Both the position numbers and the translations under genes were made by a program. 13,840 nt of DNA. It comes from Deltaproteobacteria bacterium (lineage in GTDB: Bacteria; Desulfobacterota; Binatia; UBA9968). The stretch is taken from positions 1 through 13,840 of the forward strand of contig VBLN01000067.1 of the NCBI GenBank assembly GCA_005878685.1. The letters are read 5' to 3'. The notes under the pieces are model-generated. The model made no database searches. It was not told the DNA's origin and saw nothing but the letters and a program-made list of their open reading frames with translations. This document shows positions 1 through 13,083 of this stretch, piece after piece (within the stretch, counting starts at the first letter, position 1; each line of letters starts with the position of its first letter).

Positions 1-90
1 AGCGCTGAGGCAGTCGGCGCCAGTCATCAAAATATAGATAAGGCAGTGAACCGCTCAACCAGGTCGCCTAGTTCTAACAATCATGACAGC

Positions 91-119
91 TTGATGGAGT
101 CACCCTGGAGTGCTATCAA
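91..119 (+). promoter_or_regulatory. possible sigma70-type promoter and dyad for the Sec peroxiredoxin-like gene
   Basis: TTGATG (91-96), a 17-bp spacer and TATCAA (114-119) form a moderate -35/-10 pair ahead of the gene at 148. The start site would be near 126, giving a leader of about 22 nt that contains the GGAGGA ribosome site. CTTGAT (90-95) and ATCAAG (115-120) are inverted copies around the same segment, so a repressor or activator could bind here. The rest of positions 1-147 shows no gene I can support. Confidence 0.35.
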
Positions 120-147
120 GAGGATGACGCAAACGGAGGAGACGTCT

Positions 148-735
148 ATGCGACGGATATTTCTGTGGATCACCTTCGCTCTGGTGTTCTTTCTCAGCCC
201 GTCCTCTCATGCCCAGATGGGCCCCAAAGACGGCGCGGGGTTGCCTGCGACGGATCTCGAGAGGGTCAAGATCGGCGATAAAGCCCCGGACTTCACTTTG
301 GAGAACATGGATGGAAAGAAAATTACACTCAGCACTTATCGCGGTAAAAAAAACGTGGTGCTGGTCTTTTATCGCGGCTATTGGTGAACGTACTGCACGC
401 TTCAGCTCGGGAAGCTGAAAACACTCCTTACTCCGGCAGAGAAAAAACGGGTCGAGGTTCTGGCCGTCAGCCCCGACACCCACGCCGAGTCTAAAGAATT
501 CCTCAAGAAGCTGAAACCTTTTCCCGGGGAGTTCGATTTCCCCATGCTCGAGGACAAAGACCACAGGACCATCGACCGCTACGGATTATTAAATCCCGAG
601 GTCAAGGGCATGCCACATCCGGCGACTTACGTGATCGACAAGGACGGCGTGGTGCGGTGGAAATTTGTCGAGGTGGACTATACGAAAAGACCCAGCAACG
701 AACAAATCTTACAGGCGATACGGGAGATCTCGTAG
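148..735 (+). CDS. exported peroxiredoxin-like selenoprotein (UxxC, in-frame UGA = Sec80)
   Basis: Reading UGA at 385-387 as selenocysteine gives one 195-residue protein. Residues 1-22 are a Sec signal peptide (RR, hydrophobic stretch, SHA before the likely cleavage site), so it should act outside the cytoplasm. The mature part is an AhpC/TSA thioredoxin fold: KIGDKAPDFTLENMDG near residues 43-58, then VLVFYRGYW-U-TYC. In Cys relatives the motif is RGxWCPYC, so UGA replaces the catalytic Cys. Sec80 and Cys83 are the only Sec/Cys residues and would form a selenenylsulfide pair. The C-terminal part is typical (HPATYVIDKDGVVR near 155-168). The ATG at 148 has GGAGGA 6 nt upstream. The last 27 bp overlap the convergent glycosyltransferase gene. 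Likely role: periplasmic thiol peroxidase or thiol-disulfide oxidoreductase; substrate unknown. Alternative: a Cys gene with a nonsense mutation, which the hairpin at 401-419 and the second such gene argue against. Confidence 0.85.
385..419 (+). promoter_or_regulatory. putative bacterial SECIS element with its UGA codon
   Basis: The UGA at 385-387 is followed by a 13-nt spacer and a perfect 7-bp stem, TTCAGCT (401-407) with AGCTGAA (413-419), closing a 5-nt loop CGGGA (408-412). The first loop G is 22 nt past the UGA. As I recall, bacterial SECIS elements lie inside the coding sequence just after UGA, with a short apical loop carrying G in its first two positions; this fits. It would recruit SelB with Sec-tRNA. 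The stem could be chance, since it also encodes the conserved Leu-Gln-Leu segment. Confidence 0.7.
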
Positions 736-1398
736 GATGGAAAGCTTCTTGATCATTTTGGAGGTTCGCGTTTGGGTACGCGTAGAAACCATCTGCTTCA
801 AGAACTTAAGGTCCTCGACCGTATCGACATCGAACCAGCCAGGCAAAAGTGAGGGTTCCACTCCGACCCGAGAGAGTCGATCCCGCGTCGCCTGAAGAAC
901 CCGCGCGGTTCCCCAGGGCATGCCGGTAAAAATCTCCGGGACGAGGCGGCTCAGACCGATCAAATAATATCCCCCATCGCGGCTTGGGCCCAAAACGACA
1001 TCGGAGGACCCAGCCAATGCACGAAAAGCATCGCGCAGGAAGCTCGAAGGGAAAACCGGCAAGTCACTGCCGATGACCACGGCACGCTCATAACTTTTCT
1101 CGAACAGGTCTTCGAAAATAGAGGCCATCCGTTCTCCCAGGTCGCCGCGCCGCTGCGGAAAACAAACGAAATCGCGCGGCGTGATCTCATGGAACAGAGC
1201 AGCCGCAGCCGCGGGAGAAAAGGCGACGTAGAGATCCGCCCCTTCGAAAGACCGAACATTTTCCAGGAGATCGAGCAGCAGGCAGCGATAAAGCTCTGCG
1301 GCCTCTTTCAACGAAAGCGGCGGAGCCAGTCTGGTCTTCACCTCGCCGACAAGGGGAGCTTTGGCCATGACGACGAGGGCGTTAGCGGACTTCGGCAT
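709..1398 (-). CDS. glycosyltransferase-like protein, TIGR04282/DUF2064 family
   Basis: This 229-residue protein matches the nucleotide-sugar-transferase-like fold of TIGR04282 (rSAM/selenodomain-associated transferase 1). Visible marks are the N-terminal ALVVMAKAPLVGEVKTRLAP (residues 7-26), like the nucleotide-binding loop of GT-A pyrophosphorylases and transferases, the VIGSDLPVFP segment near 113-122 in the metal-binding region, and GPSRDGGYYLIGL near 138-150, a family hallmark. The ATG at 1398 lies inside the end of the upstream glycosyltransferase gene (17-bp overlap), so translation is probably coupled. It is the last gene of the arsS operon and its 3' end overlaps the convergent Sec peroxiredoxin-like gene. 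Sugar donor and acceptor are unknown; a role in finishing an arsenosugar or related small molecule is inferred only from neighbours. Confidence 0.85.
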   Translation of the reverse strand: MPKSANALVVMAKAPLVGEVKTRLAPPLSLKEAAELYRCLLLDLLENVRSFEGADLYVAFSPAAAAALFHEITPRDFVCFPQRRGDLGERMASIFEDLFEKSYERAVVIGSDLPVFPSSFLRDAFRALAGSSDVVLGPSRDGGYYLIGLSRLVPEIFTGMPWGTARVLQATRDRLSRVGVEPSLLPGWFDVDTVEDLKFLKQMVSTRTQTRTSKMIKKLSILRDLPYRL

Positions 1399-2056
1399 AA
1401 AACCGCTTCAACCGGAAAGGAGAGACGCCGATTAGGAACAGAAACTTGAGCACCCACATTTTTAGAATCGTCCGGCCAACCCCGTCCTTTTGCCACCGCC
1501 GGGCGGAAGTCACCACCTGGGTTCTGAGACACGCTACCTTTCCCATTTTTTTGAGATTGCGGCAAAAGGCGATGTCCTCCAGGATAGGAATCTCCGGGAA
1601 TCCATTTATCGCGTCAAAGATCCCTCGGCGAACAAAAATCGCCTGGTCTCCGGTGGCGATCCTCGTCAGACGAGAGCGGAGGCTTATCAAAGAACCGATC
1701 AATCTGAAGATAATGCCGCTATGGTCCAACCTCAAGTCGAACCGCCCTCCCACGTACCGTGGATCATCCAGCGCCGATACCACGTCTCCGATCGCCGAGG
1801 ACGGAAGGCGGGTATCCGCGTGGAGAAAAAGGAGAACGTCGCTTTGGGCCGCCGCGGCGCTGGTGTTCATCTGTCTGGCCCGCCCCCGGGAAGAAGCGAT
1901 CACCCTGACCTGCATTTGCCCTGCAATGTCGGCTGTGCGGTCCTGGCTGCCTCCGTCGACCACGATCGCTTCGACCGGAAAGGAACCGAGGCTCTTCAAT
2001 GTGGACGCGATCGTGCTTTCTTCGTCGAGCACAGGGATGATGATAGACAAGCGCAT
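1382..2056 (-). CDS. family 2 glycosyltransferase, TIGR04283 type
   Basis: A 224-residue GT-A glycosyltransferase. It opens with LSIIIPVLDEE (residues 3-13), then IVVDGGSQDRT (donor-binding loop), then LFLHADTRLP with the metal-binding HAD (DxD-like) motif. GGRFDLRLD and the acceptor-side GFPEIPILEDIAFC follow. This is the pattern of TIGR04283, rSAM/selenodomain-associated transferase 2. The ATG at 2056 is chosen because family homology begins there and it follows the upstream stop by 2 nt; the open frame runs further upstream, but only as a shadow of the membrane protein gene. It lies between that gene and the TIGR04282 gene, all on one transcript. The substrate is not known. Confidence 0.88.
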   Translation of the reverse strand: MRLSIIIPVLDEESTIASTLKSLGSFPVEAIVVDGGSQDRTADIAGQMQVRVIASSRGRARQMNTSAAAAQSDVLLFLHADTRLPSSAIGDVVSALDDPRYVGGRFDLRLDHSGIIFRLIGSLISLRSRLTRIATGDQAIFVRRGIFDAINGFPEIPILEDIAFCRNLKKMGKVACLRTQVVTSARRWQKDGVGRTILKMWVLKFLFLIGVSPFRLKRFYAEVR

Positions 2057-2058
2057 GC

Positions 2059-2760
2059 TCAGCCTTGACTGTCCTCGGGTTCTTTCAGCCGACGCAGCAA
2101 ACGTGGAAGCATGAAAAGGAAAAGAATTATCCCGAGCACTGTGCTGATCTTTAACAAGGGCCAACCGTGGCCCAGGACTGCCTCCCTGCCTGCATACCCG
2201 ATCAGGCTGTACGCCGCGGCGCCCGGGATCATGCAGAAAAAAGAAGCCGCGACGTAGTGGGACAGCTTTATCCGCGTCAACCCGAAGCCGTAGTTCAGCA
2301 GATTGAAGGGAAAAAGCGGGACGAGCCGCGTGAAAGCGACGAAGCGCCATCCTTCTTCCTCGACGCCCTGCTTCAGGCGCTTGACGATTCCACCGGCTTT
2401 GAGCTCCGCCCACTCTCCCGCGAGATGGCGCGATATCAGAAACGCGAGCGTCGCGCCCCCAGTCGCGCCGACGACGCTGTAAAACGTTCCCCACATCGGG
2501 CCGAAGATCGCGCCGCCTGCAATCGTGATCGGCGCGCCGGGAAGGAATAGCGCCGGCGCGAGAAGAAAGATCAGCATGTAGACGAACGGTGCCCACGGCC
2601 CGAGTGATTGCAGCCAATCTGAAACGAGCGCCAAACCGAAGCGTTTACGCAGCCCATAGGCCATCGCGATGAGAAAGAGCAAAGCCAAAGCTAAGACAAT
2701 TCTCCGCGCCCGGGCCGCTTTAAAGCTGCTTTCGGCGGCTGCCATCGAGGCTAAGCGCAT
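2059..2760 (-). CDS. TVP38/TMEM64 (VTT/DedA-like) membrane protein
   Basis: A protein of about 233 residues with a basic N-terminus and a membrane helix (IVLALALLFLIAMAYG). The VTT domain follows: LAPALFLPGAPITIAGGAIFGP, then a glycine-rich stretch with GATGGATLAFLISRHLA, a conserved FVAFTRLVPLFPFNLLNYGFG segment and a C-terminal helix. This is the TVP38/TMEM64 pattern of inner-membrane proteins thought to move lipids or small solutes. The ATG at 2760 overlaps the arsS stop; ATG at 2745 is an equally possible start, as neither has a clear Shine-Dalgarno. It ends in TGA, followed after 2 nt by the next gene's ATG, which shows that UGA can be a real stop here. Genes of this type often accompany arsS; export or membrane handling of the product is a guess. 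Confidence 0.85.
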   Translation of the reverse strand: MRLASMAAAESSFKAARARRIVLALALLFLIAMAYGLRKRFGLALVSDWLQSLGPWAPFVYMLIFLLAPALFLPGAPITIAGGAIFGPMWGTFYSVVGATGGATLAFLISRHLAGEWAELKAGGIVKRLKQGVEEEGWRFVAFTRLVPLFPFNLLNYGFGLTRIKLSHYVAASFFCMIPGAAAYSLIGYAGREAVLGHGWPLLKISTVLGIILFLFMLPRLLRRLKEPEDSQG

Positions 2761-3725
2761 TGCTCGGAAACGAGCGCGCCGCCGCAACTGCTTCCCGCGC
2801 CTGCGGTACAGGCGTAGCAATGGTTGCCGGTCAAAATCATTTTATCCGGTAGCGCTTCGGCCGACAGCTCCGATATTTTCAATGCCCTGCCGTTCCGGTC
2901 CGCCAGCGGCAAGTTCACCATTTGGTTAAAATCACAATCATAAACAAAGCCATCCCAGCCGACGCTGAGCAGCTCCCGGCACATGACTTTCTCCAGTGTG
3001 GCGGAGTTGAAAGCCGACTCCAATAGCGCCACATAGCCGTCGTACTCGCCGCGAAGCTTAAGGAACTTCTCAAAGCGCGTGATGGGCATATTCGCAAGGC
3101 AGTAAAGGCGATTGAAGACAATGCCATATTCCTCTTTCAGAATTTGTTTGTAGTCCCGTTCCAACCGGTCCTGGGGTGGCGGCAGGTAGGCGCCCAGCGG
3201 ATTGTAAACTAGATGAAGCTCAAGCCCCGTCGCGGGATCGCCGTATCCCAATTCGTTGAAGCGCTGGAGAGCCCTGATGCTAGGCTGGAAGGTACCCTCT
3301 CCCCTCTGCTTATCCACATTTTCTTCTGTGTAACAGGGTAGAGAGCAGATGAGTTCGACTCGATTCGCTTTAAAAAATTCCGGCAGATGATCCTTCTCCG
3401 GCTCGAAGATCACCGTGAGGTTACATCGGTCCATGACGCGGCGTCCAAGGCGAACACAGGACTCGACGAGATAATCAAAATGCGGGTTGAGTTCGGGCGC
3501 GCCGCCTGTAATATCCACCGTGGGGATCTTGGACGCGGACAAAAATCTTAGAATCGCCTCGACGGTCTCGCGCGTCATCGCTTCTTTGCGACCGGGACCC
3601 GCCTCCACGTGGCAGTGAATGCAGGCCTGATTGCAATATTTTCCCATGTTGACTTGTAAAACTTCGATTGCGCGCTTGCGCAATGGTTGTCCGATTTCCC
3701 GGAGCCTTGCGGAAAATGGTGTCAT
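2751..3725 (-). CDS. arsS: ArsS-type radical SAM protein (Cys form)
   Basis: A 324-residue radical SAM enzyme. The [4Fe-4S] motif is CNQACIHC (Cys31, 35, 38), followed by VDITGGAPELNPHFDYLV near 75-92, the GGE-like SAM-binding segment. The C-terminal Cys-rich domain has HCYACTAGAGSSCGGAL with Cys303, 306 and 314, and a last Cys at 323. This matches TIGR04167, now called arsenosugar biosynthesis radical SAM (seleno)protein ArsS, which is reported to attach a 5'-deoxyadenosyl group to dimethylated arsenic. From memory, some homologues carry Sec in the C-terminal motif; here Cys314 is an ordinary TGC codon. It is the first gene of a four-gene operon. No arsM methyltransferase lies in the window, so arsenic as substrate is inferred from the family. 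The ATG at 3725 has no strong ribosome site; an 11-codon upstream reading frame overlaps it. Confidence 0.88.
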   Translation of the reverse strand: MTPFSARLREIGQPLRKRAIEVLQVNMGKYCNQACIHCHVEAGPGRKEAMTRETVEAILRFLSASKIPTVDITGGAPELNPHFDYLVESCVRLGRRVMDRCNLTVIFEPEKDHLPEFFKANRVELICSLPCYTEENVDKQRGEGTFQPSIRALQRFNELGYGDPATGLELHLVYNPLGAYLPPPQDRLERDYKQILKEEYGIVFNRLYCLANMPITRFEKFLKLRGEYDGYVALLESAFNSATLEKVMCRELLSVGWDGFVYDCDFNQMVNLPLADRNGRALKISELSAEALPDKMILTGNHCYACTAGAGSSCGGALVSEQCA

Positions 3726-3786
3726 CTGGCAGCGCCCTTCACTCCTAGATTCATAACATAGAAAAAGGTCGGGAGCAGCACGAGAT

Positions 3787-3820
3787 AAAAAAAAGAGGCC
3801 CCCGCTGCGCGAAGGCCTCT
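3787..3820 (-). terminator. rho-independent terminator after the transglutaminase-like gene
   Basis: On the minus strand AGAGGCC (3820-3814) pairs perfectly with GGCCTCT (3800-3794) across a 13-nt loop and is followed at once by a run of seven T (3793-3787). It starts 29 nt past the stop at 3849, so it separates that gene from the arsS operon. Confidence 0.85.
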
Positions 3821-3848
3821 TCGATCATTACAGAGAATCCCCGCTAGT

Positions 3849-4946
3849 CTAGACGCTGATCTCCTTGGATGCCATGGTGTAGCGGAACGACTCTGGATCG
3901 AGGCTATCCTTTCGGCCCTCGCTCGTCTCTCCTTGCGGATACATGAAAAACGGCAACGGCTTTGCCGATGAGTTCGGCAGCTTCACGTCGTGCGCGTAGT
4001 TGAACGCGAGCCAGTTCATTTCCCATGCGCCGAAAAGCTTCGCGCGCGCTTTCTTGACCAGCGGGTCCTGAAGGCTGAGCCCCTCGGGTTTTTCCTCGAG
4101 CACCACCTTGCGCACGTCGGCGGGATCGACCGGCACCCAACCGAAACCCGTCAAATAGACCTCAGCCCGGCAGTGCTGCGCCTTGGTGATGTCTCCCGCT
4201 TTGCCAAGGCTTTTAAACTCCGCCGAGTTTGCAACCCGCACGCCGTAAACATCGCGCGCCGGCAGGCCCGACGCGCGCGCGAGCCCGACGTAGAGCGCGT
4301 TCAGGTCAGCGCACTTGCCGCCGAGGTTCCGGGACTCGAGCATCGCCCGAATATCGCCGAGGCCGCAGCCCCTCACCTTGGGGTCGCGGAAGGTATTGTC
4401 CACGATCCACTCGTATATCGCCTTGGCTTTGTCGATGTCGCGCTTGGCGCCGAGCGTGATTACGCGCGCGTTGTCGGCGACGATGCCGTCGGTCGGGATC
4501 AGTGCTGAGGGCTCGAGATAGCGCTTGAGCACTTCCGGGTCTTCCTTGATCGCCTTGTTGGACTTTTTAAAATCGATCTGGCGGTCGCGGGCCGCGAAGC
4601 GGCTCGTTAGCTCCAGGACCGGCGCCTTCTCGGACGAAGCCCATTCCGCGTACACGATTCCGGCATCGTACTTTCCGTCGCGAAAATTCCCCATGCTCGT
4701 AGCGTTGCCGGCCCACGTGTCCCCCAATCTTTTGAAATAGTTCGTGTCGGTCATGAGCGGAACCGGGAGCCAGACCCGCGATCCAGCCGACGGATTGAGA
4801 ACTTCTACCTTGGTTGTGACCTCGAACGTACGCCATTTCGACGCATCGGTCGAAGCCTCCATCCGTGCGGGCGCCGGCAAGCGGCTGGCCACGAAGAGCC
4901 CGGCGGAAACCGTGAGACCCTGTTTCAAGAAGGTGCGTCGCTTCAT
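3849..4946 (-). CDS. Tat-exported transglutaminase-like domain protein
   Basis: A 365-residue protein starting with a twin-arginine signal, KRRTFLKQG (residues 2-10), then a hydrophobic stretch and an Ala/Pro-rich cleavage region near 20-32. The N-terminal half resembles the beta-rich domain before bacterial transglutaminase cores. The catalytic triad is visible: Cys212 in GGKCADLN, His258 in QHCRAEVYL and Asp274 in PVDPADV. The fold is that of papain-like transglutaminase/protease proteins; whether it cleaves or cross-links peptides is unknown. The ATG at 4946 has AGGAGA 6 nt upstream. It stands as a single transcription unit, with a terminator after it and a promoter near 5024-5050. Use of the Tat route suggests it folds, perhaps with a cofactor, before export. 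No functional link with the arsS operon is evident. Confidence 0.85.
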   Translation of the reverse strand: MKRRTFLKQGLTVSAGLFVASRLPAPARMEASTDASKWRTFEVTTKVEVLNPSAGSRVWLPVPLMTDTNYFKRLGDTWAGNATSMGNFRDGKYDAGIVYAEWASSEKAPVLELTSRFAARDRQIDFKKSNKAIKEDPEVLKRYLEPSALIPTDGIVADNARVITLGAKRDIDKAKAIYEWIVDNTFRDPKVRGCGLGDIRAMLESRNLGGKCADLNALYVGLARASGLPARDVYGVRVANSAEFKSLGKAGDITKAQHCRAEVYLTGFGWVPVDPADVRKVVLEEKPEGLSLQDPLVKKARAKLFGAWEMNWLAFNYAHDVKLPNSSAKPLPFFMYPQGETSEGRKDSLDPESFRYTMASKEISV

Positions 4947-5023
4947 AACCTCTCCTTTTTATATTTGGTCATTATTAAATTAAGCCCCTGTTCTGCAGCT
5001 CACGTTGTTTGGACATCACGATA

Positions 5024-5059
5024 CCTATACGCTTCGTTTCTATATGTCAAATACAAAAA
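5024..5059 (-). promoter_or_regulatory. promoter with 21-bp shared element (copy 1), upstream of the transglutaminase-like gene
   Basis: On the minus strand TTGACA (5050-5045) is a perfect -35. TATAGG lies after 15 bp (5029-5024), or TAGGTA after 17 bp. The -35 sits in the segment 5039-5059, which matches 7074-7094 at 20 of 21 positions. Positions 5041-5053 form a T-N11-A near-palindrome, the general shape of a LysR-type box. The predicted leader to the ATG at 4946 is about 70 nt. Confidence 0.5.
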
Positions 5060-5110
5060 ATCTATGGCTAATCGGGGCCTCGACCCATTGTCTATCGCAA
5101 ATTTCAAGCC

Positions 5111-5122
5111 GCATGCGCATGC
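5111..5122. repeat. 12-bp perfect palindrome in the intergenic region 4947-5230
   Basis: GCATGCGCATGC is fully self-complementary. It lies in the 284-bp gap between the end of the EgtB-like gene and the promoter of the transglutaminase-like gene. It could be an operator or chance. The rest of this gap holds the promoter above and a weak candidate small frame at 5134-5187 (-); I see no confident gene. Confidence 0.3.
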
Positions 5123-5230
5123 TAATCCGATGTTCAAGACATAAGGATCTTAAACACACAAACAGGATGATATGCAATTGCGCTCACAGTGAAACCTCCT
5201 CTGCAAGCCGGCTAAGACTAAAGCTTCATG

Positions 5231-6565
5231 CTATACGTCGGAGACGCACCGGAACTTTGCAAACACGTATGGATAGTGCGCCTGGTACCAGTTGCGGAAG
5301 CTGGGACGAAGAAGATCAGCGGCCGTGGCCCAAGAGGCTCCTTTTAATACATAATGCTTGCCGTCGAAAAAATCGGCGGAGTATTCGGGATAGGACTCGA
5401 GAGGAACAAAGCCCGGAAACGGAGCAAACGGAGTTTCGGTCCATTCCCACCCATTGCCGACAAGCTCGTGGATGCCCCACGGGCTTATTCCTTGAGGCCT
5501 GGACCCTACCGGTGCAGGAGACCAGCGGCAAAAATCAAAATTGCCGTGATTCGGACACGGCTCGTCTTCGCCCCAGGGAAAGGGAATTTCACGTCCGTCC
5601 GCTGTGCAGCAGGCAGCACGAGAATATTCCGCTTCGGTGGGGAGCCTCCGCCCCTTCCATCTCGCGTAGGCCTGCGCTTCAGCCAAGCTTACATAGACCG
5701 GCCAGTCGGAAACCGCGGACAAAGGCAGCAAATCAAACAAAGTGCGATAGCACCACTCGCCGCGGCGTCTCAGCCAAAAGTTCGGATGACGCATGCCTTG
5801 CCTCAACTTCCATGCCCAGTCTCCTCTACCCCAATAATAGGAATCCTCGTACGCACCGCTGTCTAAAAACTCAAGAAATTGCCTGTTGGTCACTGGGGTG
5901 GAGCCCATGCGAAAGGCGGGCACATCCACAATCTGCGCCTGAAACTCGTTATCCCAGCCGAACTCAATACTGCCCAGCGCCGCGCCAAGTCTCACACGCC
6001 CTCCCGGGATCCTGATTTCCTGCTCCGGTTCTCCTCTCTGAAAGGAGTATTCGGGCAACCCTTGCGGGCGAACTTTGAGTTCCGGTGGCAGCTCGTGAAC
6101 CATGTAAAGTAGGGTTTCCTGGTGCATGAGTTCATGCTCGAACACTATACGAAACGCCTGGCGGTAATTGGGCTTCCGCTCCCTCACCGCCTTCGACCGC
6201 GCGCCATCCAACGATTCCAGCACCGCCTCACGCACCCTATCGCGATAGAGTATGATCTCAGCAAGACGCGGCCAGACCTCGGGGACATCAGGATGGGAGT
6301 GACAACTGTCGGTATCGATGTCGGGATCAATCCCGCGGCAAAAGATCTCATCAAAATAGGCGTTGAAAGAAGCCTGCTCCATAAGATGCCGACAGATCTG
6401 GTTCCACGCAAAGGCCGGCAGATGTCCCAGGTAGAAGATAAACGGATGGCGCCACATGATAGGCTGCGCCAAAAGCGCATTAGGCTTCTCAAGCCGGAAT
6501 AAATTGTCGGTTCGTTCCCAAGCGGACTGGAATCGTCCTTCGAGCCTATCCGAGAAAGAACTCAC
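5231..6565 (-). CDS. EgtB/OvoA/SenA-family nonheme iron enzyme
   Basis: A protein of 444 residues with a DinB-like four-helix domain followed by an FGE-sulfatase (SUMF1) domain, the architecture of EgtB-type sulfoxide synthases. The three iron-ligand His are visible: His48 in FYLGHLPAF, and His144 and His148 in HELMHQE, the H-x3-H-x-E motif. The C-terminal domain has GWDNE, PVTNRQFLEF, GRRLPTEAEYSRAA, GNGWEWTETPF and VLKGASWAT, all usual for the family. Such enzymes join a thiol or selenol to a histidine-derived imidazole (ergothioneine, ovothiol, selenoneine). I cannot assign the substrate, and no EgtD-type methyltransferase is present. GTG at 6565 is chosen because it overlaps the stop of the peroxiredoxin gene by 4 bp (GTGA) after a GGGTAGG stretch, the usual coupled arrangement; an ATG in frame at 6637 lies well inside the upstream gene. 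Confidence 0.82.
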   Translation of the reverse strand: MSSFSDRLEGRFQSAWERTDNLFRLEKPNALLAQPIMWRHPFIFYLGHLPAFAWNQICRHLMEQASFNAYFDEIFCRGIDPDIDTDSCHSHPDVPEVWPRLAEIILYRDRVREAVLESLDGARSKAVRERKPNYRQAFRIVFEHELMHQETLLYMVHELPPELKVRPQGLPEYSFQRGEPEQEIRIPGGRVRLGAALGSIEFGWDNEFQAQIVDVPAFRMGSTPVTNRQFLEFLDSGAYEDSYYWGRGDWAWKLRQGMRHPNFWLRRRGEWCYRTLFDLLPLSAVSDWPVYVSLAEAQAYARWKGRRLPTEAEYSRAACCTADGREIPFPWGEDEPCPNHGNFDFCRWSPAPVGSRPQGISPWGIHELVGNGWEWTETPFAPFPGFVPLESYPEYSADFFDGKHYVLKGASWATAADLLRPSFRNWYQAHYPYVFAKFRCVSDV

Positions 6566-7030
6566 TGCCCTACCCTTTCCCCCAGGAACTTCAAAACCTC
6601 CGCCGGATGTTCTTGAGCATTCTTTACGGCCGGCCAATGCTTGATCACCTTACCATCGGGCCCGATCACAACCGTCGAGCGAAGCGTCCCTTCTACTGTC
6701 TTGCCGTACATTTGCTTCTTGCCCCATGCGCCGTAGGCGCGCATGAGCTTCATCTCGGGATCAGAAAGGAGGACGAATGGAAGACGGTAGTCACTAGAAA
6801 ACTTCTCATGGGAGGCGAGACCATCCTTACTCACTCCAAGGACCACCGGCCTTTTTTAACTGGTTATGCAGATCTCTAAAGCCGCACGCCTCTTTGGTAC
6901 AACCAGGTGTGTTATCCTTAGGATAAAAGTAGAGGATGACTGTCTTCCCATCGTAGTCCTTTAGCCGATGTCGTTTTCCATCGCTTCCGTCTAGATCGAA
7001 ATCCTTGGCTTTCTTCCCTTCGAGATTCAT
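6562..7030 (-). pseudogene. bcp: Bcp-type (PrxQ) peroxiredoxin with an apparent frameshift
   Basis: The 5' part (7030 to about 6850) encodes the PrxQ/Bcp start with the catalytic YPKDNTPGCTKEAC, including peroxidatic Cys and resolving Cys five residues later. The 3' part (from about 6846) continues the same fold in another frame: VVLGVSKDGLASHEKF, LPFVLLSD, YGAWGKKQMYGKT and STVVIGPDGKV. The break lies at LKKAG near an A6 run (6852-6857) and GGTGGTCC. In relatives two residues stand between KKAG and VLG, but here only one base remains, so about 5 nt seem missing. It is a real indel or a sequence error. The ATG at 7030 has AGGAGG 11 nt upstream. Unlike the two other peroxiredoxins in the window it keeps Cys codons. 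The stop overlaps the EgtB-like start. If the frame is intact, it is a cytoplasmic thiol peroxidase. Confidence 0.75.
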
Positions 7031-7058
7031 TATCCGCCGGGCCTCCTTTGCTGGACTC

Positions 7059-7094
7059 TTGTTAGAGTTTAAATCTATATGTCAAATAGAAAAA
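7059..7094 (-). promoter_or_regulatory. promoter with 21-bp shared element (copy 2), upstream of bcp
   Basis: On the minus strand TTGACA (7085-7080) is followed after 15 bp by TAACAA (7064-7059), a weak -10 at the same spacing as in copy 1. The segment 7074-7094 repeats 5039-5059 with one difference, and 7076-7088 is the same T-N11-A near-palindrome. It would drive bcp and the EgtB-like gene. The selenium-type LysR gene ends just upstream at 7137. Confidence 0.45.
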
Positions 7095-7136
7095 TACAAT
7101 AGCGATAGTGATGGTTTCGCGGACGCTCGGAAGGCG

Positions 7137-8048
7137 TTAGTTATTTTTCAGAAATTGGATGAAGGCGTCCGATACGGAAGAAAGAGCGCGTTGTCGATGA
7201 ATGACCTGATAGAAGTCTCGCTCCAGTCGTAGCCCGCGAATGCGAACCTCCTTGAGAGAGCCGTCTCGGAGCTCCCGTCGGATAGAGGTGCGGGAGAGAA
7301 TCGAAATGCCAAATCCCGCGATCAGGGCTTCTTTGATGGCCTCAGTGCTCCCGAGCTCCATGCTAACACGCAGGAGCTTCTCCGGCTTATGGCCTTTGCG
7401 GGTTAGCAATCTCCTGAACGAGCGCAGCGTGCCGGAGCCTCCCTCGCGGGATATGAACCCCTCCTTGCGGAGCTCTTGCACATCAATCGCCTTGAGACGA
7501 GCCCACGGATGGGTCTTAGGGATCGCCAAGACCATCTCATCCTTCCAGATCTTTTGGAAGGCGAGCCTCCCGTCTCCACCCTTGAAGCCGACGAACCCGA
7601 TTTCCACCTCCCCATCGAGAACAGCCTCGACGATCCCCGCAGAATCACCGCTGCGCAAGACCGGCTTGACTTCCGGATATTTCTGAGCGAAGGCGGCAAG
7701 TTTGGGCGGGAGGACGTACTCGCCGGGAATGTTGCTCCCCCCGACCCGGAGTTCCCCCCGAACCTTCCCGTGGAACTGGTCAAGAGACGCCAACGTATCC
7801 CTTTTCAAAGCCAACAGTCTTTTGGCCGAGTCAAAGAGAACTTGCCCGAGAGGGGTTGGGGCGATCTTTCCGCCCAGCCGATTGAAGAGCTTTGTGCCTA
7901 GCTTCTTTTCCAACTCATGTACATGGGCGCTGACCGTTGGCTGACGGAGCGAGAGATGACCGGCAGCGGCAGAGAAACTCTTGAGCTCGGCCACCCAATA
8001 AAACACTTCGACCTTGCGCAAATCTAAATCGCCCATCGTCCGGCCCAT
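7137..8048 (-). CDS. LysR-type regulator, selenium-metabolism-associated group
   Basis: A 303-residue LysR regulator. The winged helix-turn-helix is clear: LRKVEVFYWVAELKSFSAAA (10-29), then LRQPTVSAHVHELEKKLGTK. The effector domain begins with GELRVGGSNIPGEYVLPPKL. This wording closely resembles regulators named selenium metabolism-associated LysR family, found in Sec-using genomes; the name rests on my recall, and the effector is unknown. ATG at 8048 is preferred because a promoter (TTGACA, 18 bp, TTTAAT) would start RNA at about 8050, giving a leaderless mRNA; GTG at 8054 would lie before the RNA start. ATG at 8036 is also possible. It is divergent from the YgfZ-like gene and co-directional with bcp, 106 bp downstream. 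LysR proteins usually act on the divergent promoter, so ygfZ and bcp are natural candidate targets. Confidence 0.85.
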   Translation of the reverse strand: MGRTMGDLDLRKVEVFYWVAELKSFSAAAGHLSLRQPTVSAHVHELEKKLGTKLFNRLGGKIAPTPLGQVLFDSAKRLLALKRDTLASLDQFHGKVRGELRVGGSNIPGEYVLPPKLAAFAQKYPEVKPVLRSGDSAGIVEAVLDGEVEIGFVGFKGGDGRLAFQKIWKDEMVLAIPKTHPWARLKAIDVQELRKEGFISREGGSGTLRSFRRLLTRKGHKPEKLLRVSMELGSTEAIKEALIAGFGISILSRTSIRRELRDGSLKEVRIRGLRLERDFYQVIHRQRALSSVSDAFIQFLKNN

Positions 8049-8056
8049 CGTCACCC

Positions 8057-8086
8057 ATTAAAGATGGAGGCCGTCGACGTTGTCAA
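8057..8086 (-). promoter_or_regulatory. predicted promoter of the LysR gene
   Basis: On the minus strand a perfect TTGACA (8086-8081), an 18-bp spacer and TTTAAT (8062-8057). RNA should start near 8049-8051, only 1-3 nt before the ATG at 8048. The -35 box overlaps the -35 of the divergent promoter, because TTGTCAA read from the other strand is TTGACAA. Confidence 0.6.
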
Positions 8087-8108
8087 CCTGATTCAATGGC
8101 GTTATATT
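8080..8108 (+). promoter_or_regulatory. predicted promoter of the YgfZ-like gene
   Basis: TTGTCA (8080-8085), a 17-bp spacer and TATATT (8103-8108), each one base off consensus. RNA should start near 8114-8116, 2-4 nt before the ATG at 8118, which has no Shine-Dalgarno. This makes the in-frame ATG at 8064 very unlikely as a start. Confidence 0.65.
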
Positions 8109-8117
8109 TCGATAGTC

Positions 8118-9212
8118 ATGGCTAAAGAATCGCCGTTCGTAAAGATCGCCCGCTCGAGCGGGGCCGAATTTAGCGAAGAAAACGGCTGGCTGTTGCCATC
8201 ACACTTCGGCGATCCGCTCCGGGAATATCAAGCGGTTCGTTCAAAGGTTGGCCTGATCGATCTCTGTCACCGTGGCATTCTTCGCTTTACGGGGCCGGAC
8301 CGGATCTCTTTCCTTCAGGGGATGGTTTCCAATGACGTGAAGGCTTTGGCCGACGGAGAAGGCTTCCCTGCTGCGATCCTGAACGTGCAGGGGAAAATTC
8401 TAGCGGACACGAGAATCCTTTGCGGGAGTGACTTCATGCTCCTGGATCTCTGGGAGTTTTTGAAGGATAAAATTCTAGATCATCTGAACCACTACCTGAT
8501 TGCCGATGAAGTCGAAATCACTGACTTGACCGCTCATTGGGGGATCCTCTCTTTTCAAGGACCTAAGGCCCGGTCCTTTTTGACAGAACTTTTCGCAGAC
8601 GATAAGCTTCCCGCGCTCGAGCACAGCCATTGCGCCCTTTCTATTGGCGGCGCTCAGCTGCGCCTGATCCGCTCTACCCACACAGGCAATGAAGGCTATG
8701 ACTTGCTGGCGGAGATCAAAACCCTTTCGGCGATATTCCCTCGCATCCAAGCGCTGACAGAAAACTTTTCTGCCCGCTGGATCGGATCTCAGGCGCTAGA
8801 GATCCTCCGGATCGAGGCAGCCATACCTCGCTACGGAATCGACATGAACGAGGACAACCTTTTGCTTGAGACGGGATTAGAGCAAGCAGTCAGCTTTCAG
8901 AAAGGCTGCTACTTGGGACAGGAGGTGCTGGAGAGAATCCGCTCCCGGGGCCATGTAAACCGCAGGCTTGCCGGAATGGTTCTCGAAGGAGACGCTCCCG
9001 CGGGACGCAACGATGCCGTCCATAGCGGCGAGAAGGAGATCGGGAGAGTCACAAGCTCGACCTTCTCACCGTTTCTCAATCGTCCCATCGCCCTCGGATA
9101 TATTCATCGTAACTACCTCGAGCCAGGAATTCCTCTGCTCATTCATCATAACAGTAAGACCATTGCGGCCAAAGTCGCTCCGCTCCCCTTCTACCGGATG
9201 GATGGATCGTAG
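8118..9212 (+). CDS. ygfZ: YgfZ/GcvT-like folate-binding protein
   Basis: A 364-residue protein of the GcvT fold. The N-terminal part has YQAVRSKVGLIDLCHRGIL and the FLQGMVSNDVKAL segment near 65-77. The diagnostic YgfZ signature KGCYLGQE is at 262-269, with its conserved Cys264, followed by the C-terminal barrel domain (IGRVTSS, ALGYIHR). YgfZ (IbaG/COG0354 type) binds tetrahydrofolate and helps maintain certain Fe-S enzymes, such as MiaB in E. coli. The segment GFPAAILNVQGKILADTRIL is also typical. ATG at 8118 is chosen from the promoter position and the start of homology. A Rieske ferredoxin gene follows after 74 bp, which fits an Fe-S theme. It is divergent from the LysR regulator and may be under its control. 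Confidence 0.85.
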   Translation: MAKESPFVKIARSSGAEFSEENGWLLPSHFGDPLREYQAVRSKVGLIDLCHRGILRFTGPDRISFLQGMVSNDVKALADGEGFPAAILNVQGKILADTRILCGSDFMLLDLWEFLKDKILDHLNHYLIADEVEITDLTAHWGILSFQGPKARSFLTELFADDKLPALEHSHCALSIGGAQLRLIRSTHTGNEGYDLLAEIKTLSAIFPRIQALTENFSARWIGSQALEILRIEAAIPRYGIDMNEDNLLLETGLEQAVSFQKGCYLGQEVLERIRSRGHVNRRLAGMVLEGDAPAGRNDAVHSGEKEIGRVTSSTFSPFLNRPIALGYIHRNYLEPGIPLLIHHNSKTIAAKVAPLPFYRMDGS

Positions 9213-9286
9213 CGCCTCTTGAATTCCGCATAGGAGCTAAGCTAAATACAAGGCCTTGAAAATCGCTTACGGAAGGAGCCTGAATA

Positions 9287-9592
9287 ATGGCAGACTTTGT
9301 GAAGGTGTGTAAAAAAAGTGATCTCCCGGAAGGCCGCGGAAGAACCGTCGACGTGAACGGAAAGCCGGTGGCGATCTTCAACGTGGACGGAAATTTTTGC
9401 GCCATCAGCGACACCTGCATGCACCGCGGCGGACCTTTGGGAGAGGGGGAGCTGGATGGTAAAATCGTCGTCTGTCCCTGGCACGGTTGGAGATATGACG
9501 TCACCACAGGCGTCAACGAATTGAACCCTTCAATCTCCGTTCAGAAATATCAGGTCAAGGTCGAAGGAGATGATCTGCTCGTGGAAGGCTAA
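9287..9592 (+). CDS. Rieske [2Fe-2S] ferredoxin
   Basis: A 101-residue single-domain Rieske protein. The cluster ligands are in CMHRGG (Cys44, His46) and CPWHGWRYD (Cys63, His66), the spacing of soluble NirD or dioxygenase-ferredoxin types. There is no signal peptide or membrane segment, so it should be a cytoplasmic electron carrier. The ATG at 9287 has AGGAG 8 nt upstream. It lies 74 bp after the YgfZ-like gene on the same strand and is followed by a hairpin that probably ends the transcript. No oxygenase or reductase partner is present in the window, so its electron partner is unknown. Confidence 0.92.
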   Translation: MADFVKVCKKSDLPEGRGRTVDVNGKPVAIFNVDGNFCAISDTCMHRGGPLGEGELDGKIVVCPWHGWRYDVTTGVNELNPSISVQKYQVKVEGDDLLVEG

Positions 9593-9605
9593 CGCTCAGA
9601 GCTTT

Positions 9606-9655
9606 GAGGGACCCGCTGCCTCTTGAGGTGCAAATGTAAAACGGTCGGGTCCCTC
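9606..9655 (+). terminator. long-stem terminator-like hairpin between convergent genes
   Basis: GAGGGACCCG (9606-9615) pairs perfectly over 10 bp with CGGGTCCCTC (9646-9655) across a 30-nt loop that holds a small inner hairpin (CCTC-TT-GAGG, 9619-9628). The tail TTGTTT is only partly T-rich. It sits between the Rieske gene and the end of the convergent peroxiredoxin gene, so it may serve either strand. Confidence 0.6.
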
Positions 9656-9687
9656 TTGTTTCGGTTAAATGTCTACGAAAGTTTCCG

Positions 9688-10155
9688 TTACCCTTTGTTG
9701 ATTTTGTCCAGCTCCGCAAGGAGTTCCTTGTTTTCTGGAATTCCCTTATCATAGAGCTTCGTGAAACGTACGATCCCCTGCTTGTCAATGATAAAAACCG
9801 CCCGTTTCGGGTAACCTTCAGCCCTTAGACAATCATACGTGGCGCAAACCGCGCCGTGAGGATAAAAGTCAGAAAGCATCGGGAAGTTAATGCCTCCCAT
9901 CTTCTCGGCAAAAGCTTTGTGGGAAAAAACCGAATCAACACTCACGCTCAGCACCTGAGCGTCTCTCGCCTCGAAGCTTTTTCGCTCTGCTTCGAAGTTC
10001 GTGAGTTCTTGCTGTCAACCACCGGTAAAATCGAGGGGATAGAACGCCAAGACGACACTTTTTTTCCCCAGAAAGTCCCGCAGCCCCACCTTCTGCTCCC
10101 TAGTTACGGGCAAGCTGAAATCAGGGGCTCTATCCCCGACATTGGGCATTGTCAT
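9688..10155 (-). CDS. peroxiredoxin selenoprotein (in-frame UGA = Sec47, TxxU)
   Basis: Reading TGA at 10017-10015 as selenocysteine gives a full 155-residue AhpC/TSA peroxiredoxin. It begins [17 protein letters not shown] and has [21 protein letters not shown]. The peroxidatic motif P-x3-T-x2-C is intact (Pro40, Thr44) except that UGA stands at the Cys position. Downstream, [25 protein letters not shown], Cys104 and Cys109, Arg118 and [12 protein letters not shown] (119-130) complete the fold; either Cys could be the resolving thiol. Peroxiredoxins with Sec at this place are known in some anaerobes such as Eubacterium acidaminophilum (from memory). The ATG at 10155 has a perfect AGGAGG 6 nt upstream, so the 5' part is clearly translated. 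It follows the Nudix gene by 40 bp. Without Sec decoding the product would be a 46-residue stub. A nonsense mutation is the alternative, but the position and the hairpin make it less likely. Confidence 0.88.
9969..10017 (-). promoter_or_regulatory. putative bacterial SECIS element with its UGA codon
   Basis: On the minus strand the UGA (10017-10015) is followed by a 17-nt spacer, then CTTCGAAGC (9997-9989) pairing with GCTTCGAGG (9977-9969), 9 bp with one U-G pair. The loop is 11 nt, AGAGCGAAAAA, with G at position 2, 28 nt past the UGA. This fits the layout of bacterial SECIS elements as I recall it. Its sequence is unrelated to the hairpin at 401-419, as expected if only structure is selected. 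Confidence 0.7.
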
Positions 10156-10195
10156 GGCAACCTCCTTCTTCGTTCATTCTGTGCTTTCTTTCCTA

Positions 10196-10744
10196 TCAAG
10201 TCTTACCGGAGAGGTAAAGCCGGATATAGTCCTTAAGCGCATCTCTGGTGCTTGGGAAGGCCAGCTCTTGCCAAGGGATCTCCGCTGGGGTAAAGGTCTG
10301 AGCCTCGACGGACTCATCCCTAGCCCGAAGTTCCCCCCCTATCACCTCAGCGGCATATACGACAATCACATTTGGCGAATGAGGATACGAGTAGACCTCC
10401 AAGAGAGAACAGAGCTTTACGTCCAAATCACATTCCTCTTTGGTTTCTCGGATAGCCGCGTCTCGGACGCTTTCGCCGCGGTCCACATAGCCGCCAGGGA
10501 AGACCCATTTGCCCATCGACGGCTCCACTCCTCTCCGCAGCAAAACCACTCCACGGTCTATAGCAAAGATTGTTCCGGCAACAACCTTGGGGTCCAGGTA
10601 AAATATAAAGGCGCAGCTTTGGCAGACTAAGCGCTCCGGCTCGATGGTCTTGATCTTCCGCCGCTCCAGCTTTCCTCCGCAGCGCGGACAGAAGCTATAC
10701 TCCACATGGCCATGGGTATGGAGATGGCTTTCTTCTTTACTCAC
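10196..10744 (-). CDS. Nudix hydrolase with N-terminal zinc ribbon
   Basis: A 182-residue protein. Cys19, Cys22, Cys41 and Cys44 (CPRC and CQSC) form a zinc ribbon, as in NudC-like and related Nudix proteins. The Nudix box runs from Gly85 to Leu107: G-x5-E-x7-RE-x2-EE with Glu91, Arg99, Glu100, Glu103 and Glu104 in place, although the usual following Gly is Asp106. It should hydrolyse a nucleoside diphosphate linked to another group, using Mg2+; the substrate cannot be told. The start is GTG at 10744 with AAGGA about 4 nt upstream. It ends in TGA 40 bp before the Sec peroxiredoxin, so the two are probably co-transcribed, and is divergent from the HAD gene. Confidence 0.85.
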   Translation of the reverse strand: MSKEESHLHTHGHVEYSFCPRCGGKLERRKIKTIEPERLVCQSCAFIFYLDPKVVAGTIFAIDRGVVLLRRGVEPSMGKWVFPGGYVDRGESVRDAAIRETKEECDLDVKLCSLLEVYSYPHSPNVIVVYAAEVIGGELRARDESVEAQTFTPAEIPWQELAFPSTRDALKDYIRLYLSGKT

Positions 10745-10768
10745 GGGTTCCTTTTACCTTAGAACCAA

Positions 10769-10797
10769 TTGAAACAAAAGAGGATATTAGGTATCAA
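10769..10797 (+). promoter_or_regulatory. predicted promoter of the HAD hydrolase gene
   Basis: TTGAAA (10769-10774), a 17-bp spacer and TATCAA (10792-10797). RNA should start at about 10804, the first base of the GTG start codon, so a leaderless mRNA is predicted. Confidence 0.55.
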
Positions 10798-10803
10798 TGA
10801 GAT

Positions 10804-11487
10804 GTGCTGCGCGCTATCATTTTTGATTTCAACGGCATCCTGGTGGATGACGAGCCCATCCATCTCGAGCTGTTCCAAAAGGTTCTTTTCGAAGAGGGAC
10901 TATCTCTCACCAAGGAGGAATATTATGCGCGTTACCTTGGCATGGATGACCGCGGCTGCTTCAAAGCAGCCTACCGTGATCGAGGACGGACTTTAGATGA
11001 GGCTACCCTGACCGAGCTTATCCGGCGCAAGGCAGTCTATTATCGGAATGCGATTCAACGAAGGCTCACAGTCTTTCCAGGAGTCAAGAAGTTAATTCCC
11101 CAGCTCTCATCCTCCTATCCCCTAGCTATCGCGTCCGGCGCGCTGAGGAGCGAGATCGAAATGATAGTGCAAACGATAGGTTTAAGAAACTATTTTCAAG
11201 TTATTGTAAGTACTGAAGATATTACTGAAGGAAAGCCTAGCCCGGAGATTTTCGCCAAGGCGCTCACCTTGTTCAATCAGCACAATCTTGATGCTAAGCC
11301 GATAACTCCTTCGGAATGTCTCGTTATTGAGGATTCGAAGGAAGGCATCCTTGGCGCGCATCGCGCCGGAATGAAGTGCCTGGCGGTCACTAACTCTCAT
11401 CCAAAGGTAGAGCTGACAGAAGCGGACGCGATCGTGGGGAGTCTGGACGAAGTCACTATCCCCTTCCTCGAAAGCCTTCTGCCGTAA
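10804..11487 (+). CDS. HAD-superfamily hydrolase, beta-phosphoglucomutase-like
   Basis: A 227-residue protein with all four HAD motifs: FDFNGILVD (Asp8 nucleophile), Ser111 in IASGA, Lys144 in EGKPSPEIF, and Glu176/Asp177 in VIEDSKEGILGAHRAGM. The helical cap between residues 15 and 90 is the phosphoglucomutase/phosphatase type. The second residue of the DxD pair is Asn10 instead of Asp; it is a variant I have seen in related proteins, and it may alter the acid-base step. Substrate is unknown, probably a sugar phosphate or other small phosphate. GTG at 10804 is chosen because homology begins at once and the promoter places the RNA start there; there is no Shine-Dalgarno. It stands alone, between the divergent Nudix gene and a convergent SDR gene 19 bp away. 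Confidence 0.85.
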   Translation: MLRAIIFDFNGILVDDEPIHLELFQKVLFEEGLSLTKEEYYARYLGMDDRGCFKAAYRDRGRTLDEATLTELIRRKAVYYRNAIQRRLTVFPGVKKLIPQLSSSYPLAIASGALRSEIEMIVQTIGLRNYFQVIVSTEDITEGKPSPEIFAKALTLFNQHNLDAKPITPSECLVIEDSKEGILGAHRAGMKCLAVTNSHPKVELTEADAIVGSLDEVTIPFLESLLP

Positions 11488-11498
11488 AATATCTATCT

Positions 11499-11526
11499 GC
11501 CTGAATCTAGACGTACGGGCTTTTTT
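11499..11526 (+). terminator. possible terminator of the HAD gene inside the SDR 3' end
   Basis: GCCTG (11499-11503) pairs with CGGGC (11516-11520), 5 bp with one T-G pair, and is followed directly by TTTTTT. The stem is short. It lies 12 bp past the HAD stop and overlaps the last codons of the convergent SDR gene. Confidence 0.45.
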
Positions 11527-12226
11527 GCGGCCTGACGGTTATCTCGACGGGGCAGGACGTGATGGGAGAGGTCAAAACAAATAGGACAGCGCGGGCAATA
11601 TCCTCGGGACGGATCATCCTGGTCCTGTCCAATCTCTTTATCGGTGGAATCATCGGGGTATCGACAAAGCCCGGCAGAATCACCGTCACCTTGATTCCGT
11701 ACTCTCTAACCTCCTCGTACAGGGACTCTGTAAATCCGATGAGACCAAACTTCGACGCCGAGTAGGCGGCCGTGTTTTCCTGACCGCTCTTACCGGAAAC
11801 CGAGCTGATGTTGATGATCGCCCCTTCCCCTTTCTCCATGAGTTTGGGCAGGACCAGTTGGCTCAGAACCATTGGCGCGCGCAGATTGACGCGGAACGTC
11901 GCGTCCCAGTCTTCCCTTTTAGCCTTGAGGATAGGCCCTGTCTTTCCCCAGCCGGCATTGTTGATCAGATGATCAATCGATCCCCACTTTTCCAAAGTCG
12001 CCGTTACGAGCCGCTCTATCTCTTCATCCAGCGACAGATCTGTGGGGACGACCAACGCTTCTCCTCCCTGGTCCCGGATCTCCTCACCAACGGCTCTCAA
12101 TTGAGACTCGCTGCGCGCCGCCAACGCGACGCGAGACCCCGACCGGCCGAGCAGAACGGATATGGCCCTTCCGATTCCTCTTCCGGCACCTGTAACGATG
12201 GAGACCTTACCTGCGAGGGATTTCAT
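11507..12226 (-). CDS. short-chain dehydrogenase/reductase
   Basis: A 239-residue classical SDR. The dinucleotide-binding motif TGAGRGIG is at 12-19, NNAG at 89-92 and the catalytic Ser142, Tyr155 (YSASK) and Lys159 are present. ALAARSE at 35-40 places Arg residues after beta-2, which often favours NADP(H). The PGFVDTPM segment near the C-terminus is typical. It oxidises or reduces an alcohol/ketone of unknown identity. The ATG at 12226 follows the NTF2-like gene by 19 bp, in a three-gene operon with the cupin. Its 3' end is only 19 bp from the convergent HAD gene. Confidence 0.92.
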   Translation of the reverse strand: MKSLAGKVSIVTGAGRGIGRAISVLLGRSGSRVALAARSESQLRAVGEEIRDQGGEALVVPTDLSLDEEIERLVTATLEKWGSIDHLINNAGWGKTGPILKAKREDWDATFRVNLRAPMVLSQLVLPKLMEKGEGAIINISSVSGKSGQENTAAYSASKFGLIGFTESLYEEVREYGIKVTVILPGFVDTPMIPPIKRLDRTRMIRPEDIARAVLFVLTSPITSCPVEITVRPQKSPYV

Positions 12227-12245
12227 AAGCTCAGCTCATTGTCAT

Positions 12246-12668
12246 TTAATGAAAGGTCGACGGGCTTAACTGTCCTGGCTGCATGACCGTAGAGCCATGG
12301 TGGTGAATCATGAACCATTCAGCGTCGCGCCGCTCGAAGATATTCGTTGCCAGGACAGATCCCGTACTTAGTTCATTTCCCTCTCGGCTGGTAAGGTTCT
12401 CGTACAGAGTCACCCACGCGAGCGAGCCTCGGACTTCAACTTGAACTTCTGTCAGAATAAAGTGCATCTCTTCCGTGTTCTCGAAAATCCGGCGCCAGCT
12501 CGCCATCACAGCCTCCCAACCTCGCAGCAGCCCCCACCCCGGATGAAAGCACTGGACATAGTTCTCCTTAAGCCACATCTTCTCCATCTTTTGCGCGTCG
12601 AGACTCTCAAAGGCATTATAAAAATCTTCGTTGGCCTTATAGACATCGATCTGCTCTTTGCCCTTCAT
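12246..12668 (-). CDS. NTF2-like (SnoaL-type) protein
   Basis: A 140-residue single-domain protein of the NTF2-like fold. It shows an N-terminal helix pair (EDFYNAFESLDAQKMEKMW), the YVQCFHPGWGLLRGWEAVMASWRRIF region, and beta strands ending in WFMIHHHGS. Family members are small-molecule enzymes, such as isomerases or hydrolases, or binding proteins; the His-rich C-terminal strand may line the pocket. The ATG at 12668 has GGAG 5 nt upstream and lies 9 bp after the cupin stop. Being between a cupin and an SDR suggests work on the same metabolite, but I cannot name it. Confidence 0.8.
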   Translation of the reverse strand: MKGKEQIDVYKANEDFYNAFESLDAQKMEKMWLKENYVQCFHPGWGLLRGWEAVMASWRRIFENTEEMHFILTEVQVEVRGSLAWVTLYENLTSREGNELSTGSVLATNIFERRDAEWFMIHHHGSTVMQPGQLSPSTFH

Positions 12669-12677
12669 AACGGCTCC

Positions 12678-13004
12678 TCAGTGGGTGGGCTTCGGCGCCA
12701 TAAAGACAAGTAGAACCAGCCGCTCCGGTCCTGGGTTGCTAACCCCATGCCTCTGGCCCGACGGCGCTATCGCAATCTGTTGTTCCTCGAGTTCCTTCTG
12801 CTCCTGACCGATCTGAAACAAACCTTTTCCCTGCACCACAAAATAGATTTTATCCGACCCTTCATGCGTATGGGGAGCTTGCGCTTGTCCAGACTCAAAA
12901 CAATAGAGGTCGCAAAACATTCTCTCGGTTTCGAAAAGGCCGGTTTTCTTCATCTTTTCCGGCGAAAACTGCATCGCGTCTGAAACCGACTTGAAGTTTT
13001 CCAT
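12678..13004 (-). CDS. small single-domain cupin protein
   Basis: A 108-residue cupin. The first metal motif is seen in HTHEGSDKIYFVVQGKG (two His and a Glu-like position) and the second in PSGQRHGVSNPG, with one His. Together these could bind a metal, as in cupin 2 dioxygenases, isomerases or sensors. The ATG at 13004 is chosen because AGGAGG stands 5 nt upstream; the frame stays open to 13085 but without homology. It is the first gene of the operon with the NTF2-like and SDR genes, and is divergent from thiI. Confidence 0.82.
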   Translation of the reverse strand: MENFKSVSDAMQFSPEKMKKTGLFETERMFCDLYCFESGQAQAPHTHEGSDKIYFVVQGKGLFQIGQEQKELEEQQIAIAPSGQRHGVSNPGPERLVLLVFMAPKPTH

Positions 13005-13024
13005 ACAATCCTCCTTTAACAGAA

Positions 13025-13053
13025 ATTTTATCACACACGAATAGCCATGCAAA
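13025..13053 (-). promoter_or_regulatory. predicted promoter of the cupin operon
   Basis: On the minus strand TTTGCA (13053-13048), a 17-bp spacer and TAAAAT (13030-13025), the latter one base off consensus. RNA would start near 13018, leaving a short leader that includes AGGAGG. It lies in the 79-bp gap shared with the divergent thiI gene. Confidence 0.45.
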
Positions 13054-13083
13054 ACTGGAGCGAATCTGATATTTTGATTTTCC

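Follow-up and report, generated by a model that had tools for sequence, protein, structure and literature searches.

This work asks whether a UGA codon inside an otherwise open reading frame of a binatial bacterium ends a gene or encodes selenocysteine (Sec). The frame lies near the start of contig VBLN01000067.1 (Deltaproteobacteria bacterium, assembly GCA_005878685.1, class Binatia, order UBA9968); the window referred to here is the whole stretch analyzed, positions 1 to 13,840 of that contig. The assembly comprises 3.79 Mb in 507 contigs and is 80.6% complete. A first-pass annotation, made from the DNA alone, had proposed an exported peroxiredoxin-like selenoprotein with the pair Sec80 and Cys83, and the identical UGA in all 16 aligned orthologues, together with selection on both sides of it, supports a selenoprotein. 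With high confidence, we read the gene product as an exported selenol/thiol:disulfide oxidoreductase of peroxiredoxin-like fold, in which Sec80 arises by UGA read-through. On this reading, the ribosome would decode the UGA as selenocysteine; following the known bacterial pathway, SelB would recognize a hairpin ∼20 nt downstream and deliver the Sec-tRNA, and the N-terminal signal would export the product. Like thioredoxin, ResA, or TlpA, the protein would then use Sec80 as the nucleophile that attacks a disulfide or peroxide and Cys83 to resolve the selenenylsulfide. Here the reading frame, the selection before and after the UGA, the hairpin, and the machinery genes were all tested for one and the same predicted exported UxxC selenoprotein.

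The gene is one frame of 195 residues that ends in TAG and is broken only by the UGA; its coordinates, the position of the UGA, and the Shine-Dalgarno sequence were as first described, and gene callers do split the frame at this codon. A match to PF00578 (AhpC/TSA) runs across the UGA (residues 42 to 171; 128.7 bits against a cutoff of 26), and orthologues align over the full length, which bears out the claim of homology on both sides. Sec80 and Cys83 are indeed the only redox pair. Of 35 genomes searched in the order, 33 gave matches. The alignment takes a single orthologue, complete or nearly so, from each of 16 genomes, and further copies or fragments in three genomes (G015, G023, and G025) lie outside it. 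The 15 other proteins are 58 to 71% identical to that of the window. All 16 genes carry UGA at the same codon, none has TGC or TGT there, and neither a second internal UGA nor any stray stop was found in them; this sharing is not chance. Purifying selection is similar on either side of the codon, with a median dN/dS of 0.148 before the UGA (57 of 120 pairs with finite dS) and 0.118 after it (68 of 120), dS being near saturation in these pairs.

Five residues are invariant among the 16 orthologues: R76, W79, Sec80, C83, and P158. In alignments with peroxiredoxins, Sec80 falls on the Thr of the peroxiredoxin site and Cys83 on the peroxidatic Cys, with the UGA three residues before the catalytic Cys. 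The first-pass annotation had put the UGA at the catalytic Cys position; the alignments instead make Sec the leading, attacking residue of a thioredoxin-like UxxC motif, which corrects the peroxidatic assignment. The family resemblance to peroxiredoxins nevertheless leaves a rival to weigh, namely, a selenoprotein working as a peroxiredoxin, with Cys83 peroxidatic and Sec80 resolving. The PF00578 match, a modeled AhpE-like fold, and the column occupied by Cys83 speak for it. However, none of the three peroxiredoxin site residues is kept, with Arg76, Sec80, and Pro158 standing in for Pro, Thr, and Arg, respectively: where the strict motif reads PxxxTxx(C/U), the 16 proteins invariably read R76xxxU80xxC83, and Pro158 stands in the column of the catalytic Arg of 2ywn, 2cx3, and 3hjp. 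We consider this function unlikely and reject membership among peroxiredoxins in the strict sense. A PF00578 match with UxxC in place of TxxU is the mark of the Prx-like UxxC proteins, and, as judged from its sequence, the window protein combines a peroxiredoxin fold with the UxxC site of a thioredoxin-type redoxin.

The protein was also said to leave the cytoplasm, and inspection of the alignment agrees: its N terminus is of the export type, hydrophobic and ending in SHA-Q. The window protein begins MRRIFL, which might suggest twin-arginine export. Most orthologues lack the RR pair, however, and for this reason ordinary export by the Sec translocation route appears preferable.

Downstream of the UGA lies a hairpin whose core, CAGCT-loop-AGCTG, begins 15 nt past the UGA, with its loop 20 nt past it, in 16/16 orthologues. 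The hairpin with loop CGGGA is present as first described, but the "perfect 7-bp" stem is not a conserved feature: the inner five pairs are each kept in 15 or 16 of the 16 genes (a single genome breaks an outer pair of this core), and the two outer pairs form in only four. Among 45 columns with an invariant amino acid that has synonymous codons, a single codon is used in all 16 genes at only two, CAG and CTC; these adjoin and form the 5′ arm. Where Lys follows the loop Gly, the latter is encoded by GGG (10/10); where Glu follows, it is encoded by GGC or GGT (6/6), which closes a sixth pair over a GGC or GGT loop. According to a published description (PMC13188914), a bacterial selenocysteine insertion sequence (bSECIS) is a small stem-loop with G in the first two loop bases, a loop 16 to 37 nt after the UGA, and an energy limit of −7.5. 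The window conforms, with CGGGA at 20 nt and a fold of −8.3 for the segment from UGA to +38. An Rfam scan of the window at the gathering cutoff gave no match. In the wider class, the bSECIS geometry fits 48/48 Sec rows versus 13/66 Cys rows; in 100 synonymous redraws of the Sec rows, the fits averaged 10 of 48 and never exceeded 17. This count used the published geometry and, for the hairpin on its own, a threshold of −4 kcal/mol chosen by us; its entry L031 is a neighboring paralogue, and the L031 orthologue carries the same hairpin.

As for the machinery, the first-pass annotation had named selA, selB, selC, and selD as the genes to look for. Contig C197 of the window's genome carries three of them, selA, selB (split), and selD, and the last is itself of the Sec type, with a UGA in its GUAAK site. 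The two selB frames overlap (2243–2959 and 2844–4154 of locus L022, minus strand), and a second, weaker SelD-like gene occurs on contig C481. The tRNA gene selC was not found here: a tRNA-Sec model gave 10 matches in this genome, none over the cutoff (the eight loci given are ordinary tRNAs), and BLAST with the selC of a sister genome against it gave no match. Across the order, selC exceeds the cutoff in at least 25 of 35 genomes, with part of the candidates scored, and selA is found in 32 of 35; all 26 selC loci are called tRNA-SeC with anticodon TCA by ARAGORN. Among the 16 aligned genomes, selC was seen in 12 and selA in 14.

Several observations count against the selenoprotein as proposed. 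The export signal was judged from the alignment by eye. The −7.5 limit is reached by the UGA-to-+38 segment of 11 of the 16 orthologues and missed by that of the other 5, and several orthologues have a different structure as their lowest-energy fold. When the 48 nt from the window's UGA were folded by themselves, 57 of 200 shuffles did as well, as did 8 of 200 for a 27-nt cut, and we therefore do not use folding energy alone as support for the hairpin. Covariation within the 16 orthologues is weak because the hairpin core is nearly invariant. In this assembly, selB is broken over two frames, and selC is missing from the 150 of 397 candidates scored in a genome 80.6% complete. Finally, the relative G031 has the gene and shows neither selA nor selC.

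The missing selC, like the splitting of the frame by gene callers, is what would be expected if the UGA were a true stop and the locus a pseudogene, a sequencing error, or two genes. Such accounts would have to accommodate one UGA shared by all 16 genomes, constraint of similar strength before and after it, and a conserved hairpin; we reject them as extremely improbable. A general reassignment of UGA to an amino acid, which the 66 UGA-bearing genes among 70 listed redoxin matches of the class might invite, is just as improbable, since UGA terminates ordinary genes: 4 of 17 reading frames of the window (one a fragment) and 2 of the 16 orthologues end in TGA, the adjoining Trp is TGG in 16/16, and relatives in other phyla have Cys at the site.

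The selenocysteine reading extends beyond one gene. At E 1e-10, the window's genome yields four redoxin matches, all with UGA. A class search at E 1e-16 matched 56 of 148 genomes, and each of the 66 UGA-bearing genes among the 70 matches listed carries a single in-frame UGA. These matches comprise 54 of UxxC type (52 Sec and 2 Cys, in keeping with the expectation that the column hold Cys or UGA only), 15 of TxxU/C type (14 Sec and 1 Cys), and one fragment without the site. In other phyla, 64 of 80 loci are Cys relatives, which show that the reading procedure does not create UGA; they were picked by a pattern demanding the site and are no independent test of the column. When the alignment was used to search the phylum at E 1e-35, only the window's genome and G031 matched among 395 genomes; scoring covered no more than 8 candidates per genome, which makes this a weak negative. 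In a tree built from 113 rows (48 Sec and 65 Cys), Sec and Cys must have interchanged at least seven times, and well-supported branches force four of these changes; the clade to which the window protein belongs, with 18 Sec rows (support 100/99), stands next to seven Acidobacteriota Cys proteins (93/83). Left out of both tree and hairpin count were L198, L215, and L219, which have no UxxC motif, and the UxxC rows L175, L176, L221, and L222; the fragment L070, without the site, was also left out, and a length filter dropped one of the 66 Cys rows from the tree. Some class matches (L184–L220 and others) share the hairpin CAGCUCG(G/U)(C/U)CGAGCUG, and others have rewritten stems.

On balance, we lean slightly toward a broader proposal, in which Sec would be the default active-site residue of AhpC/TSA-type redoxins in this class. 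Several exported and cytoplasmic subfamilies, of UxxC and TxxU type, would have gone back and forth between the two residues more than once, and each would carry a small SECIS of its own, in many cases that portable stem or a rewritten one with the same G-first loop. If so, the redox biology of the lineage is under-read because gene callers cut UGA redoxins: there are two in the window and, besides SelD, at least four in its genome. Such a lineage, with UGA-split redoxins apparently the norm, would form a ready-made set of cases in which to study how Cys and Sec have replaced each other repeatedly. Two further redoxins of this genome, L164 on contig C385 and L165 on contig C24, have an in-frame UGA (FTPTU and FSPTU) and hydrophobic N termini and are probably exported.

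Features of the selenoprotein locus and of a second predicted selenoprotein gene in the window
Feature	Position	Strand	Basis or remark
Shine-Dalgarno GGAGGAG, 6 nt before ATG148	135..141	+	Read from sequence
Sec-containing Prx-like UxxC redoxin gene	148..735	+	Frame, PF00578, orthologue alignment, conservation
Probable export signal MRRIFLWITFALVFFLSPSSHA, likely cleaved ahead of Gln23	148..213	+	Alignment inspected by eye
UGA read as selenocysteine, Sec80	385..387	+	UGA in 16/16 aligned orthologues
Cys83, partner of Sec80; column of peroxiredoxin peroxidatic Cys	394..396	+	Alignments
bSECIS-like hairpin TTCAGCT-CGGGA-AGCTGAA	401..419	+	Conserved core 403–407 with 413–417, loop CGGGA 408–412
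Predicted second selenoprotein, peroxiredoxin PxxxTxxU; UGA 10015–10017	9688..10155	−	Relative, separate gene; relatives in order share UGA

Gene order around the locus is largely kept in the sister genome G027, where 15 of 16 queried window genes occur in the same order. Of the 16 relatives' loci, 10 have an upstream same-strand epimerase and/or short-chain dehydrogenase, and in 6 (G012, G015, G024, G026, G030, and G031) a same-strand DUF3179 gene lies downstream. Five of these six, read in part, contain their own UGA (VTWUPLC); the remaining one is a fragment that lacks the site. The UGA-bearing copies lie at L235 4820–5947, L236 1–303, L237 4989–6110, L243 380–1393, and L244 4372–5406; directly downstream of an orthologue, such a gene places two exported-looking selenoproteins side by side. 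DUF3179 is a listed selenoprotein family in PMC13188914. No DUF3179 gene was found in the window's genome, and none stands beside the window's copy. Elsewhere in the window, all on the minus strand, are an arsenosugar-type cluster (709–3725) with TIGR04282 and TIGR04283 glycosyltransferases, a VTT-domain protein, and an ArsS over the cutoff, with Cys rather than Sec in its SSCGG end; an EgtB/OvoA/SenA-type protein (5231–6637) below all three cutoffs (266/400, 253/420, and 250/360 bits), for which, together with the second SelD-like gene, a selenoneine link is conceivable; and a Cys-type BCP/PrxQ-like gene (about 6562–7031), apparently frameshifted in this assembly.

Among known systems, ResA and the TlpA/DsbE-type thiol-disulfide oxidoreductases are exported proteins that resemble the window protein in having W-C-x-x-C at the aligned site (E 1.4e-13 to 4nmu) and Pro at the aligned later position, which in them we take to be in the cis form. 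Unlike ResA, the window protein has Sec in place of the first Cys, and it scores 69.8 bits against a cutoff of 170 (NF002854); no NCBIfam model reaches its cutoff for this protein. Sec-containing TxxU peroxiredoxins, one of which is encoded by the second gene in the table, share its superfamily and fold; their Sec is peroxidatic and follows P-x-x-x-T-x-x, whereas that of the window protein sits in the Thr position. We found no paper on Binatota selenoproteins or selenocysteine in Binatia, in literature that excludes most subscription journals. The closest likeness is to the Prx-like selenoproteins with a thioredoxin-like UXXC, known since 2005 (PMC1088965), counted as 225 Prx-like 1 selenoproteins with UxxC (PMC2398784), and entered in Table 1 of PMC13188914 as "Prx-like thiol:disulfide oxidoreductase" (PF00578; representative WP_010940744.1). 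The family described in these sources matches the window protein in PF00578, in UxxC replacing TxxU, and in a bacterial UGA with a downstream hairpin. Because the family is already listed there, the earlier suggestion that such exported proteins are uncommon was overstated. Unlike the family as described, the window's subfamily has an export-type N terminus and the site FYRGxWUxxC. The kind is already known and the window protein is a new, probably exported member of it; what may be new is the exported subfamily, together with the use of Sec throughout the class.
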